From Streptomyces otsuchiensis (GTDB lineage Bacteria > Actinomycetota > Actinomycetes > Streptomycetales > Streptomycetaceae), in the NCBI RefSeq assembly GCF_004305975.1, contig NZ_BHZI01000005.1, forward strand, positions 1 through 49,026: a DNA stretch of 49,026 nucleotides, read 5' to 3'. The translations under genes were made by a program, and so were the position numbers. Positions 28,476 to 39,865 of the stretch are shown one piece after another (position 1 is the first letter of the stretch; the number at the start of each line of letters is the position of its first letter). A model generated the notes under the pieces. It worked only from the letters and a program-made list of their open reading frames with translations. It searched no databases and was not told the origin of the DNA.

Positions 28476-28603
28476 ACCACTGGGGTGGCGGCTTGGGAAG
28501 AGTGGTACGGCCAATGACCGAAATCAATCCGTGACCTCGGGCACCTCGCTCCACGAGGACCGCGCCGATCGCCGGTTCGGAGTCCGGTGTGGTGGGGCGT
28601 GGT

Positions 28604-28649
28604 GGGGCGTGGCGAGCGGCGCGTGCGTCCGCGCCCCTCGCCACGCCCC
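28604..28649 (-). terminator. Terminator of the DUF1707 gene
   Basis: Outer 13-bp stem (ggggcgtggcgag / ctcgccacgcccc) and, after a C-C mismatch, an inner 6-bp stem with a 6-nt loop; 24 bp past the DUF1707 stop. Confidence 0.75.
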
Positions 28650-28672
28650 CTGGAATGGCCCTCGGGCAGGCC

Positions 28673-29299
28673 CTACTTGCGCTTGCGCTGCTCCCAGCGG
28701 TTCAGGCGCCGGATCGTCACGCCTCCCACGCCGCCGGAGCCGACCACCCGCAGGAGGGGCCCGTCGCCCTCGGGCTGCGGCTGCTTGGCGGTCTTGTCGG
28801 CGACCCCGCCGATCCCTTCCTTCGTCTCGGCCGCCACCTCGACCCGCCAGGTGGCCGGGACGATCAGCGTGACACCGCCCACGTCACCGTGCGCCTCCAC
28901 CTCGACCTGGCGGTGCGACATCTCGCCCTGGGTGAAGTCGATCTTGACGCCGCCCATCCCGCCCTTGATGAAGATGTGGGTGGGGACGACCCAGGGTTCG
29001 GTCCGGTTCTCGCCCCCGACGCCGCCCTTGATGACCAGGGGCTCGGAGGACTGTGCCGGTGCCGCCGGCTCGGGAGCCCGGGCGGCCGCCCCGCCCGGCA
29101 GGTCCGCCGTCACCGGCTCCAGTTCGGCGTAGGTCTTCGCGGCGAAGGTCCGTTCCAGCCGTTCGTCCAGCTCGTCCAGGCCCAGCCGGCCGTCACCGGC
29201 CGCCTCCCTGAGGAGTTCCGCGACCGCCTCTCGGTCGGAGTCCGAGATGCGGAGGTCGGCTCGCGGGTCACGCTCGTGGGGGGGAGGGAGGTTAGTCAT
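28673..29299 (-). CDS. DUF1707 protein with LiaF-like C-terminal domain
   Basis: A 208-residue, probably cytoplasmic protein. Residues 15-69 are a DUF1707 domain (DLRISDSDREAVAELLREAAGDGRL...), a helical module common in actinobacteria. The rest is a beta-rich, Gly-rich region with repeated units (VIKGGVGGENRTEP, IFIKGGMGGVKIDF, AHGDVGGVTLIVP, GSGGVGGVTIRRL), like the LiaF/cell-wall-stress beta domain. No membrane helix is seen, unlike most LiaF proteins. The ATG is 7 nt after TAGAAT, so it is likely leaderless. It is divergent from pcrA by 57 bp, with both -10 boxes in that gap. Confidence 0.82.
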   Translation of the reverse strand: MTNLPPPHERDPRADLRISDSDREAVAELLREAAGDGRLGLDELDERLERTFAAKTYAELEPVTADLPGGAAARAPEPAAPAQSSEPLVIKGGVGGENRTEPWVVPTHIFIKGGMGGVKIDFTQGEMSHRQVEVEAHGDVGGVTLIVPATWRVEVAAETKEGIGGVADKTAKQPQPEGDGPLLRVVGSGGVGGVTIRRLNRWEQRKRK

Positions 29300-29306
29300 A
29301 CCGGGG

Positions 29307-29312
29307 ATTCTA
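29307..29312 (-). promoter_or_regulatory. -10 element of the DUF1707 gene
   Basis: TAGAAT on the minus strand, followed by 7 nt and then the ATG; near-consensus, fits a leaderless start. Confidence 0.55.
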
Positions 29313-29342
29313 GGAGCCGTCGGGCCCCGGTCGCCATCACCT

Positions 29343-29348
29343 TAGACT
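29343..29348 (+). promoter_or_regulatory. -10 element of pcrA
   Basis: TAGACT, 8 nt before the pcrA ATG. A partial ribosome site (cggag) lies in the same 8 nt, so the start may be leaderless or nearly so. No TTGTCRGTG sequence lies upstream, so this is not a DNA-damage promoter of the kind seen at 39.6 kb. Confidence 0.5.
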
Positions 29349-29356
29349 CGGAGACG

Positions 29357-31963
29357 ATGAGCAGCAGCCTTTTCGACGACAGCGCGGACAGCCTCGCGGC
29401 GGCCGCCGGCGCCGCCCGCCCGGCCTTCACGCCCGGTGGGCCCGGTTCCGGCGCCTCCTCGGGCCCGGAGCGAGGGCCGGGTGCCGGGGCCTCCGGCACC
29501 GACCCGCTGTGGGAGCTTCCCTTCCCGGGCGAGGCCGGTGACACCGGCGGTGACGAGCCCCCGCCCCCGGAGGACCGCGAGGGGGCACCGCCGGAGACGG
29601 TCCCCGACGACCTCTTCGCCGGGGCGTTCACCGCCGAGCCGGACCCCTCCTACTACCGCGACGGCGCCCGCATGCCCGTCATCGATCCCGCGCGGCTCCT
29701 CGAAGGGCTCAACGATCAGCAGCGCGCCGCCGTGACCCACAGCGGCACCCCGCTGCTGATCGTCGCCGGTGCGGGCTCCGGCAAGACCCGGGTGCTCACC
29801 CACCGCATCGGCTACCTGCTCGCCGCCCGGGGCGCCCACGCCGGCCAGATCCTCGCGATCACCTTCACCAACAAGGCCGCCGGAGAGATGAAGGAGCGCG
29901 TCGCCGACCTCGTCGGCGCCCGCGCCAACGCGATGTGGGTGATGACCTTCCACTCCGCGTGCGTGCGCATCCTGCGCCGCGAGAGCAAGAAGCTCGGCAT
30001 GACCTCCAGCTTCTCCATCTACGACGGCGCCGACTCCAAGCGGCTGATGGCGCTGGTCTGCCGCGACCTTGACCTGGACCCCAAGCGGTTCCCGCCGAAG
30101 GCGTTCAGCGCCAAGGTCTCCAACCTCAAGAACGAGCTGATCGACCCCGAGGACTTCCACGCCCAGGCGCAGGACGGGTTCGAGAAGACCCTCGCGGAGG
30201 CGTACACCCTCTACCAGTCGCGGCTGCGCCAGGCCAACGCCCTGGACTTCGACGACATCATCATGACCACCGTCACCCTGCTCCAGGCGTTCCCCGATGT
30301 CGCCGAGCACTACCGGCGGCGGTTCCGCCACGTGATGGTCGACGAGTACCAGGACACCAACCACGCCCAGTACACCCTGGTCCGGGAACTGGTCGGCCGG
30401 GCGAGCGAGGAGCCGGACGCGGTCGAGCCGGCCGAACTGTGCGTGGTGGGCGACGCCGACCAGTCCATCTACGCCTTCCGCGGCGCGACCATCCGCAACA
30501 TCCTCCAGTTCGAGGAGGACTACCCGCAGGCCAGGACGCTGCTGCTGGAGCAGAACTACCGCTCCACCCAGACCATCCTGACCGCCGCCAACGCGGTCAT
30601 CGAGCGCAACGAGAACCGTCGCGCGAAGAACCTGTGGACCGAGTCCGGCGAGGGCGCGAAGATCATCGGCTACGTCGCCGACACCGAACACGCCGAAGCC
30701 CAGTTCGTCGCCGAGGAGATCGACCGACTCACCGACGCGGGGACCAGCCGCCCCGGTGACGTCGCCGTCTTCTACCGCACCAACGCCCAGTCCCGGGTCT
30801 TCGAGGAGATCTTCATCCGGGTCGGCCTGCCCTACAAGGTCGTCGGCGGGGTCCGGTTCTACGAACGCAGGGAGGTCCGGGACGTCCTGGCCTACCTGCG
30901 GGTGCTCGCCAACGGCGAGGACACCGTCTCGCTGCGCCGCGTCCTCAACGTCCCCAAGCGCGGCATCGGCGACCGGGCCGAGGCGATGATCGAAGCCCTC
31001 TCCCTGCGCGAGAAGATCTCCTTCGCGCAGGCGCTGCGCCGGGTCGACGAGGCGTACGGCATGGCCTCCCGGTCCGCCAACGCCGTCAAGCGGTTCAACG
31101 CGCTGCTGGAGGAACTGGCCACCATCGCCGAGTCCGGCGCCGGGCCCGCCACCGTGCTGGAGGCCGTCCTGGAACGCACCGGCTACCTCGCCGAACTCCA
31201 GTCCTCCACCGACCCGCAGGACGAGACCCGGGTCGAGAACCTCCAGGAACTCGCCGCGGTGGCACTGGAGTTCGAGGAGGCCCGCCCGGAGGGCGAGACC
31301 GGCACCCTCGCCGACTTCCTGGAACAGGTCGCCCTCGTCGCCGACTCCGACCAGATCCCCGACGACGAGGAGGGCGGCGAGAGGGGCGTCATCACCCTGA
31401 TGACCCTGCACACCGCCAAGGGCCTGGAGTTCCCCACGGTCTTCCTCACCGGTATGGAGGACGGGGTCTTCCCGCACATGCGGTCGCTGGGCAAGACCAA
31501 GGAACTGGAGGAGGAACGCCGCCTCGCGTACGTCGGCATCACCCGGGCCCGCGAACGGCTCTACGTCACCCGCGCCACCGTCCGCAGCGCCTGGGGCCAG
31601 CCGCAGTACAACCCGCCCTCCCGCTTCCTGGAGGAGATCCCCGCCGTCCACCTCGACTGGCGGCGAACCGGTGGCACGGCCACCGCACCCGCGCCGGCCC
31701 GGTCCGGCGGCGGGCGCGGCGGTTCCGCGACCGGCACCCGCAACGGGCTGACCGGCGCCGCGTCGGGGTTCGCGACCGGACGGATCAAGGACCGGGAGGT
31801 GGTCGCGCTCTCCCCCGGAGACCGGGTCACCCACGACACGTTCGGGCTGGGGACCGTCGTCGCCGTCGAGGGCAGCGGCGACCGTGCCCAGGCCACCGTC
31901 GACTTCGGCGGCGAGAACCTCAAACGGCTGCTGCTGCGGTACGCGCCGGTCGAGAAGCTCTGA
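29357..31963 (+). CDS. pcrA: ATP-dependent DNA helicase, PcrA/UvrD
   Basis: Superfamily 1A 3'-5' helicase of 868 residues for repair and removal of recombination or replication blocks. All motifs are visible: Q motif LNDQQRAAV, Walker A GAGSGKT at 138-144, DEYQD (motif II), GDADQSIYAFRGA (III), QNYRST (IV), TLHTAKGLEF (V) and EERRLAYVGITRARERLY (VI). The C-terminal region has GDRVTHDTFGLGTVVAV, the Tudor-like RNA-polymerase-binding domain of PcrA. A disordered N-terminal extension of about 115 residues, Gly/Pro/Ala-rich, is unusual compared with the B. subtilis enzyme but common in actinobacteria. It is divergent from the DUF1707 gene. Confidence 0.95.
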   Translation: MSSSLFDDSADSLAAAAGAARPAFTPGGPGSGASSGPERGPGAGASGTDPLWELPFPGEAGDTGGDEPPPPEDREGAPPETVPDDLFAGAFTAEPDPSYYRDGARMPVIDPARLLEGLNDQQRAAVTHSGTPLLIVAGAGSGKTRVLTHRIGYLLAARGAHAGQILAITFTNKAAGEMKERVADLVGARANAMWVMTFHSACVRILRRESKKLGMTSSFSIYDGADSKRLMALVCRDLDLDPKRFPPKAFSAKVSNLKNELIDPEDFHAQAQDGFEKTLAEAYTLYQSRLRQANALDFDDIIMTTVTLLQAFPDVAEHYRRRFRHVMVDEYQDTNHAQYTLVRELVGRASEEPDAVEPAELCVVGDADQSIYAFRGATIRNILQFEEDYPQARTLLLEQNYRSTQTILTAANAVIERNENRRAKNLWTESGEGAKIIGYVADTEHAEAQFVAEEIDRLTDAGTSRPGDVAVFYRTNAQSRVFEEIFIRVGLPYKVVGGVRFYERREVRDVLAYLRVLANGEDTVSLRRVLNVPKRGIGDRAEAMIEALSLREKISFAQALRRVDEAYGMASRSANAVKRFNALLEELATIAESGAGPATVLEAVLERTGYLAELQSSTDPQDETRVENLQELAAVALEFEEARPEGETGTLADFLEQVALVADSDQIPDDEEGGERGVITLMTLHTAKGLEFPTVFLTGMEDGVFPHMRSLGKTKELEEERRLAYVGITRARERLYVTRATVRSAWGQPQYNPPSRFLEEIPAVHLDWRRTGGTATAPAPARSGGGRGGSATGTRNGLTGAASGFATGRIKDREVVALSPGDRVTHDTFGLGTVVAVEGSGDRAQATVDFGGENLKRLLLRYAPVEKL

Positions 31964-39552: not shown

Positions 39553-39559
39553 GCACCGA

Positions 39560-39582
39560 ACGCTAGGCCCGGCCACTGACAA
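39560..39582 (-). promoter_or_regulatory. RecA-NDp-type (PafBC) DNA-damage promoter of the SWIM-DUF5691 operon
   Basis: Minus strand: TTGTCAGTG, 8 nt, TAGCGT, then 7 nt to the SWIM ATG. This fits the published consensus TTGTCRGTG-N8-TAnnnT for LexA-independent damage promoters of mycobacteria and relatives, recognised with the PafBC activator. Confidence 0.75.
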
Positions 39583-39693
39583 CCGGCCGTCGCACGAGGC
39601 GGTCCACAGAGATTCCACAATCCTCGTTGCCCTTGCGGCACATGGGTTCAGGGGTCATTCGTCGCCCCGTCAGATCTCTCCGGGCAGCGAGAT

Positions 39694-39716
39694 TGTCAGT
39701 GGCCGCGTGCAGAGTG
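39694..39716 (+). promoter_or_regulatory. RecA-NDp-type (PafBC) DNA-damage promoter of the MoxR operon
   Basis: Plus strand: TTGTCAGTG, 8 nt, CAGAGT. The upstream element is perfect and the spacing exact; the -10 has C for T at its first position. Transcription would start near 39723, giving a leader of about 143 nt. Confidence 0.65.
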
Positions 39717-39865
39717 TCCTTCAGCGATCGACGGCCATGCCGGTGACGTGGAGCACATGGTGTTCCGCGCTGCCTGTAACCCTCGGTCACCGTTTTTCCG
39801 GCTATGCCGGACCATCGCGGCCGCGCCCGACCCACCGCACGCGCCGCCCACCAGAGGGGGAACCC

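Follow-up and report, generated by a model that had tools for sequence, protein, structure and literature searches.

The intergenic region between the SWIM and MoxR genes of Streptomyces otsuchiensis very likely carries two divergent promoters of the RecA-NDp/PafBC type, inducible by DNA damage, which would drive both halves of a five-gene system encoding a predicted protein machine. Because most relatives keep this two-promoter arrangement, we consider the machine to be very probably part of the DNA-damage response. The sites, their spacing, their conservation, the co-occurrence of the motif with repair genes and the PafBC genes can all be read from the DNA itself, and on these grounds we infer PafBC binding and induction at the locus. 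Throughout, the window is the whole stretch of 49,026 nt that was analyzed.

Two outward-facing boxes in the intergenic region

Between the SWIM and MoxR genes (39553-39865), two exact copies of TTGTCAGTG face outward, each with a -10-like hexamer at the same distance (Table 1), as the sequence-only reading had proposed. That reading had also described a 13-bp inverted repeat without further copies in the window, and indeed, a 13-bp stretch (TTGTCAGTGGCCG) is common to both sites, with 110 nt separating the 9-mers, while no additional exact TTGTCAGTG occurs across the whole window. A third claim, that both sites match the published promoter TTGTCRGTG-N8-TAnnnT, stands for the SWIM side (0 mismatches) and needs amending for the MoxR side. 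There, the TTGTCRGTG box is likewise exact, but a C replaces the first T of the -10 (1 mismatch). As this -10 reads CAnnnT at every exact orthologous site, we regard the MoxR-side site as a variant promoter that probably works like the RecA-NDp/PafBC type.

We also looked for the LexA box TCGAAC-N4-GTTC, whose best match in the window has 3 mismatches, and which is found with 2 mismatches in 29 of the 62 orthologous regions described below versus 89 of 400 control stretches. LexA control seems unlikely, there being no convincing SOS box in the window's intergenic region.

Table 1. Positions of the genes and candidate promoter elements in the window
Feature	Position	Strand	Basis or remark
PcrA/UvrD-type helicase	28589-31963		Far side of locus
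DUF5691 protein, 610 aa	36326..38158	-	Pfam PF18944 (2.6e-142); overlaps SWIM end
SWIM zinc-finger protein, 465 aa	38155..39552	-	Leads left operon; Pfam PF04434, CxCPSRKxPCKH, alignment
SWIM-side -10-like hexamer TAGCGT	39560-39565	-	Exactly 8 nt from box
SWIM-side box TTGTCAGTG	39574-39582	-	Exact match
Candidate RecA-NDp/PafBC-type promoter, SWIM-DUF5691	39560..39582	-	TTGTCAGTG-N8-TAGCGT, 7 nt to SWIM ATG
Spacer between outward boxes	39583..39692	.	110 nt
MoxR-side box TTGTCAGTG	39693-39701	+	Exact match
MoxR-side -10-like hexamer CAGAGT	39710-39715	+	Exactly 8 nt from box
Candidate RecA-NDp-like promoter, MoxR-DUF5682-VWA	39693..39715	+	TTGTCAGTG-N8-CAGAGT; -10 starts CA, not TA
MoxR-type AAA+ ATPase, 374 aa	39866..40990	+	Pfam AAA_5 (7.5e-37)
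DUF5682 protein, 813 aa	40987..43428	+	Pfam PF18934 (7.1e-289)
VWA (CoxE-type) protein, 406 aa	43425..44645	+	Pfam PF05762 (1.5e-61)

Genes of the locus and their proteins

To the right of the VWA gene lie two succinyl-CoA ligase genes, and sucC we take to be SCO4808. For DUF5682, low-confidence models suggest that the N-terminal domain is perhaps of the EreA/ChaN/TIKI/TraB hydrolase type, a superfamily for which the fold and the GxxH, E, and GxxH motifs are the criteria, and that the C-terminal part is helical; the mean pLDDT of the whole-length model is 63.7. Foldseek searches gave no match below 1e-3 with either the whole-length or the N-terminal model, and the DUF5682 profile reached solved structures at a best E of 0.35, which we counted as nothing. 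Reading the genes as a defence system was rejected, since PADLOC matches none of the five proteins.

A second MoxR-DUF5682-VWA cluster, without an exact damage box, is present in the same genome (L121, G000:C33:14000-27591). Exact sites were found upstream in none of 12 paralogous MoxR loci, and so we rejected the paralogous clusters as carriers of the damage promoter. Two longer paralogue loci (L122 and L125) have one site each, elsewhere within 15-16 kb.

Conservation in the Streptomycetaceae

Within the window, allowing up to 2 mismatches, there are 3 matches to the full pattern against a shuffle mean of 0.76, and at least 3 matches turn up in 3 of 100 shuffles, so that without the relatives the motif is suggestive and a chance similarity could be argued. 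We judge the sites to be real because a box is conserved at the right spacing in orthologous regions (62/62 of the genus, 73/74 of a named set), which refutes chance and leaves it a negligible probability.

In the genus, a MoxR orthologue at ≥84% identity is found in 56 of 61 genomes, and these together with 6 more gave a genus set of 62 orthologous regions. All of them have an exact, correctly spaced box on one side or both, namely on the MoxR side in 59, on the SWIM side in 52, and on both sides in 49; we counted it against the damage-promoter reading that one exact box is missing in 13. In 7 of the 62, the 550 nt read contain no SWIM-side box even when 1 mismatch is allowed. Of all 9-mers, just TTGTCAGTG and its overlapping neighbor TGTCAGTGG recur in every one of the 62 regions, and the MoxR and downstream DNA of 30 orthologous loci (77.6 kb) contains no exact box.

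The named set consists mostly of Streptomyces, plus Streptantibioticus, Wenjunlia, and Actinacidiphila, and 74 of its 80 loci were usable (4 too short and 2 without a MoxR match were dropped). Here, the exact MoxR-side box is found in 73 of 74 loci and both boxes in 61, and the remaining locus has one-mismatch boxes only, though the genus and named sets may contain the same species twice, as may the 128-region counts given below. Among 14 other Streptomycetaceae genera with one genome each, 10 have an exact TTGTCRGTG box and 2 a one-mismatch box only, and no such box was found in the stretch read from the other two (L229 and L232). The sequence-only reading had set conservation upstream of SWIM and MoxR orthologues as a test, and the motif is kept in nearly all Streptomycetaceae examined, as well as ahead of SWIM at most of the loci read from other families of the class.

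The -10 elements are equally constant, being TAnnnT at all exact SWIM-side sites (52/52 in the genus) and CAnnnT at all exact MoxR-side sites (59/59 in the genus, 73/73 in the named set), the latter counted against the damage-promoter reading. Moreover, the SWIM ATG follows the -10 by 6-7 nt at all 52 exact SWIM-side genus sites, the window's among them, against a background rate of 2.6% for an ATG at 6-8 nt, and therefore SWIM is probably translated from a leaderless mRNA. A leaderless start is what a promoter at that place would require.

The same motif elsewhere in the genome, and PafBC genes

In the organism's own 6.15-Mb genome, TTGTCRGTG-N8-TAnnnT occurs 9 times versus 0 for the reversed-pattern control, and with the first -10 base left free there are 18 matches, the MoxR site included, versus 0. 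When 16 genus genomes were scanned, there were 406 matches to the full pattern (9 to 44 per genome) versus 2 for the reversed control. The eight other sites in the own genome precede recA, uvrB, ruvC, a RecD2-like helicase gene, rpoB, and three unclear genes. Before rpoB, the perfect damage-type site (L036, G000:C13:11694-11716) stands 245 nt upstream of the ORF.

In genome G013, sites lie before ung, ruvC, a Hel308-like helicase gene, uvrA, uvrB, ogt, and a RecD2-like gene, before rpsF, pcrA, dnaN, recA, and a DinG/YoaA-like helicase gene, and also before genes for an ECF sigma factor and an LppU-like protein and before unnamed genes. Altogether, a repair or replication gene follows 12 of the 20 other sites when rpsF is included and 11 of 20 when it is left out, with an ORF, chosen by third-position G+C, scanned at 19 of 20 sites (L319 has no convincing ORF). 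The pcrA gene of G013 has its own damage-type site (L312, G013:C1:5349342-5349364) 9 nt before the start, and no exact damage-type site was found near the window's helicase gene.

As for the activator, the own genome has an HTH_PafC+WYL+WCX gene adjoining a WYL+WCX gene, the arrangement by which we recognized PafB/PafC, and the PafC HTH was detected in all 15 genomes tested, drawn from families f1, f3, f29, f84, and f85. In the excerpted account of Mycobacterium smegmatis (PMC11804915), ssDNA activates PafBC, with PafB engaging a -26 box and PafC contacting domain 4 of sigma-A, and a PafBC-promoter-polymerase structure is reported. That another activator uses the sites is thus highly improbable; ClgR, which the excerpts of PMC5656591 cite as recognizing the mycobacterial P1 promoter, is one such candidate, but the reported structure and ssDNA activation, as well as PafC in every genome tested, favor PafBC. 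According to the same source, M. smegmatis MoxR1/2 are lower in a pafBC mutant, and we set this aside, having found nothing that ties them to the cluster. Against the PafBC reading we counted the excerpted remark that an initial search in S. venezuelae suggested the M. smegmatis motif not to be conserved (PMC9380542). The present data bear on the question, printed there, of whether Streptomyces has a PafBC-type response.

Box spacing and a third element

Both boxes, with one mismatch allowed, are present in 128 regions. In 114 of these, the distance between boxes is 26-27, 36-39, 47-49, or 60-61 nt, with 14 being longer, and distances of 28-35, 40-46, and 50-59 nt occur in none of the 128. A period of 11.3 nt fits best (R 0.90), as calculated from 40 distinct and partly interdependent spacer groups below 100 nt, and none of 5000 uniform draws scored as high; over all 117 regions below 100 nt, R is 0.78 at 10.5 bp. 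The period is near, and slightly above, the 10.5 bp of B-DNA.

Moreover, with one mismatch allowed, a third element, GCAGGTCAG, lies within the spacer of 113 of 128 regions (spacers among L002-L030, L044-L050, L081-L105, L127-L206, and L229-L243) versus 1.5% in shuffles, and in 97 of 128 it ends 5-6 nt before one box. At other damage sites it is rare in the 60 nt upstream, being found once among 20 sites in G013 (on the opposite strand) and once among 8 in the own genome (at a distance of 30 nt). Since the window lacks GCAGGTCAG even at 2 mismatches and has its 110-nt spacer against the 26-61 nt of most relatives, this organism departs from most relatives in both the spacing and the third element. 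The stepping of box distances by about 11 nt and the element between the boxes are new here, and their combination deserves testing as a promoter arrangement.

Such a layout, rare as GCAGGTCAG is at other damage sites, suggests a further DNA-binding factor, and it could be asked whether the boxes instead serve as operators at which a local regulator binds, such as a repressor or the SWIM protein itself. We think this very unlikely, because the box, linked to its -10 by 8 nt, recurs in 9 to 44 copies per genome, ahead of recA, uvrB, ruvC, and other genes, and because the outward orientation and the closeness of the -10 to the SWIM ATG suit promoters.

Sites in other families and in another class

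In the class as a whole, a close MoxR is found in 91 of 394 genomes and in 23 of 137 genera. In the families read outside the Streptomycetaceae, the SWIM, DUF5691, and MoxR genes are usually co-directional, often with one site directly before SWIM. In f84, 13 of 16 loci could be read (L211, L217, and L222 were left out, as they were too short or no SWIM N-terminus was found), and each of the 13 has its best match at position -39 or -40 relative to the SWIM anchor; 12 of them are independent, given that the L207 anchor was set from the site itself. Two of the loci are perfect, five have 1 mismatch, three have 2, and one each has 3, 4, and 5. Random 100-nt stretches reach ≤2 mismatches in 1.3% of cases and 4 or 5 commonly, so for the loci with 4 and 5 mismatches the support comes from position alone. 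The evidence in the remaining families is mixed, with 3 mismatches and a CAnnnT -10 at two f85 loci, no perfect site at four f3 loci (1, 1, 2, and 3 mismatches, one site well inside the assumed reading frame), 3 mismatches in f104, 2 in f20, and no site found at the f7 and f31 loci.

Drifted f84 boxes tend to accompany a drifted recA box in the same genome. Over the first 11 nt of recA and system sites in 13 genomes, the summed difference is 39 versus 56.3 when shuffled (p = 0.0006), a value that still contains the relatedness among genomes and sites partly picked by eye. This comparison left out G246 (no recA match), G443 and G690 (recA split), and G214 (outside the recA search). In G443 and G690, the recA matches fall in three pieces within a long open frame (L256, G443:C17; L257, G690:C85), which suggests inteins.

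In f29, which belongs to another actinobacterial class, TGTGACACCCC is found near the system genes and before recA, and both share TGTGACACCCC-N5-TAnnnT. The pattern TGTSACACCCC-N5-TAnnnT has 21 copies in five f29 genomes versus 0 for the control (L259-L279; G090, G150, G171, G246, and G214). A gene could be named behind 11 of the 21 sites, these being recA (three times), radA (twice), the MoxR gene of the system (G090), and genes for an exonuclease, a PD-(D/E)XK nuclease, gyrB, lhr, and thymidine kinase; ten ORFs were scanned, with recA, one radA, and MoxR recognized from sequence. In a scan of ten f29 promoters of the system, the mismatches number 0 for G090 MoxR, 1 for G246 SWIM, 2 for G150 and G090 SWIM, 3 for G171 SWIM and G214 MoxR, and 4 for G171 MoxR, while the three at 5-6 mismatches (G214 SWIM, G246 MoxR, and G150 MoxR) were taken as having no site. 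This pattern looks like the damage promoter of that class, and from the sequences compared, lineage variants of the system site tend to be similar to their own genome's recA site.

A predicted damage-inducible machine

The link to the DNA-damage response put forward by the sequence-only reading is supported by conservation, by the same motif before repair genes, and by the pafB/pafC-like genes; the leaderless SWIM start, the stepped spacing, the third element, and a homologue in Escherichia coli go beyond it. According to our proposed mechanism, one promoter would transcribe SWIM-DUF5691 as a leaderless mRNA and the other, with its CAnnnT -10, would transcribe MoxR-DUF5682-VWA, so that both halves of a machine homologous to YehLMPQ would be made when DNA is damaged or single-stranded. 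The five proteins may work jointly as a remodelling machine of the AAA+/VWA kind, in which DUF5682 would perhaps be a hydrolase and SWIM a reader of nucleic acid or protein.

Going further, and as a tentative proposal that we would put on the doubtful side, the YehLMPQ-like machine could be a dedicated effector of the ssDNA/PafBC damage response in actinobacteria. In the Streptomycetaceae, divergent promoters set whole helical turns apart might keep its halves in balance, with GCAGGTCAG bound by another factor, possibly the SWIM protein on its own promoter, and the machine might be a hydrolase that is driven by AAA+/VWA and works on stalled or damaged nucleoprotein. A conserved damage promoter, traced into two actinobacterial classes, places the YehLMPQ-like machine in a pathway and opens its function to direct tests.

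Comparison with known systems

In the S. coelicolor literature, excerpts of PMC8120823 describe sco4803-4806, which are likely the orthologues of the cluster, as supercoiling-dependent, with an eightfold rise on TopA depletion and a lowered topA promoter activity upon sco4804 insertion. We infer that SCO4804 is the DUF5682 gene, because its 815 aa and 86.04 kDa in the excerpted account agree with the 814 aa and 85,958 Da of the S. coelicoflavus DUF5682 ORF. What differs is that these excerpts name no damage promoter and that the gaps they report around sco4804 (103 and 171 bp) contrast with the gene overlaps in the window. That the genes respond to supercoiling itself, as proposed for sco4803-4805, rather than to damage would account for both TopA effects, but we hold it to be very unlikely, since the promoters match the damage motif and, in excerpts of PMC6637917, TopA depletion also induces recA, lexA, dnaE2, dinP, and uvrA, with the authors considering that a supercoiling change may be sensed as damage. 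The same excerpts report no such induction by novobiocin and credit the response to LexA, an attribution that we counted against PafBC. Our data thus offer damage-inducible promoters as an alternative reading of the supercoiling dependence of sco4803-4805. Among the open-licence literature, we found no paper naming the cluster as part of the damage response and none on the role of YehLMPQ; as far as its excerpts go, a 2008 motif study that featured 67 S. coelicolor genes may already include those of the cluster (PMC2375139).

With the RecA-NDp/PafBC promoters, the locus shares the box, the 8-nt spacing, TAnnnT on the SWIM side, and the motif before recA, uvrB, and ruvC in its own genome. For recA of S. 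rimosus, the excerpted 2008 study (PMC2375139) quotes the promoter TTGTCAGTGGCN6TAGggT, and SCO6735, which lies behind a promoter of this type, is described in part of PMC5087735 as UV-inducible. In contrast, the locus has a divergent pair with stepped spacing, CAnnnT on the MoxR side, GCAGGTCAG in most relatives, and a leaderless SWIM start. The MoxR-vWA-beta-propeller ternary systems (bpMoxR) likewise combine MoxR and VWA, but the domain score here is 22.5 against a curated cut-off of 27 bits, placing the locus outside them.

In E. coli K-12, the yehLMPQ cluster (with yehF, PF05406, and yehI, DUF4132, located upstream; L126, 2475-9912) has no LexA-like box CTG-N10-CAG around the yehL start, and YehQ has no DUF5691 match. 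While all its genes run in one direction, unlike those of the window, yehLMPQ brings together MoxR ATPase, DUF5682, VWA, and SWIM genes, with YehM matching DUF5682 at 2.4e-98, and YehLMPQ homologues span from E. coli to the actinobacteria.
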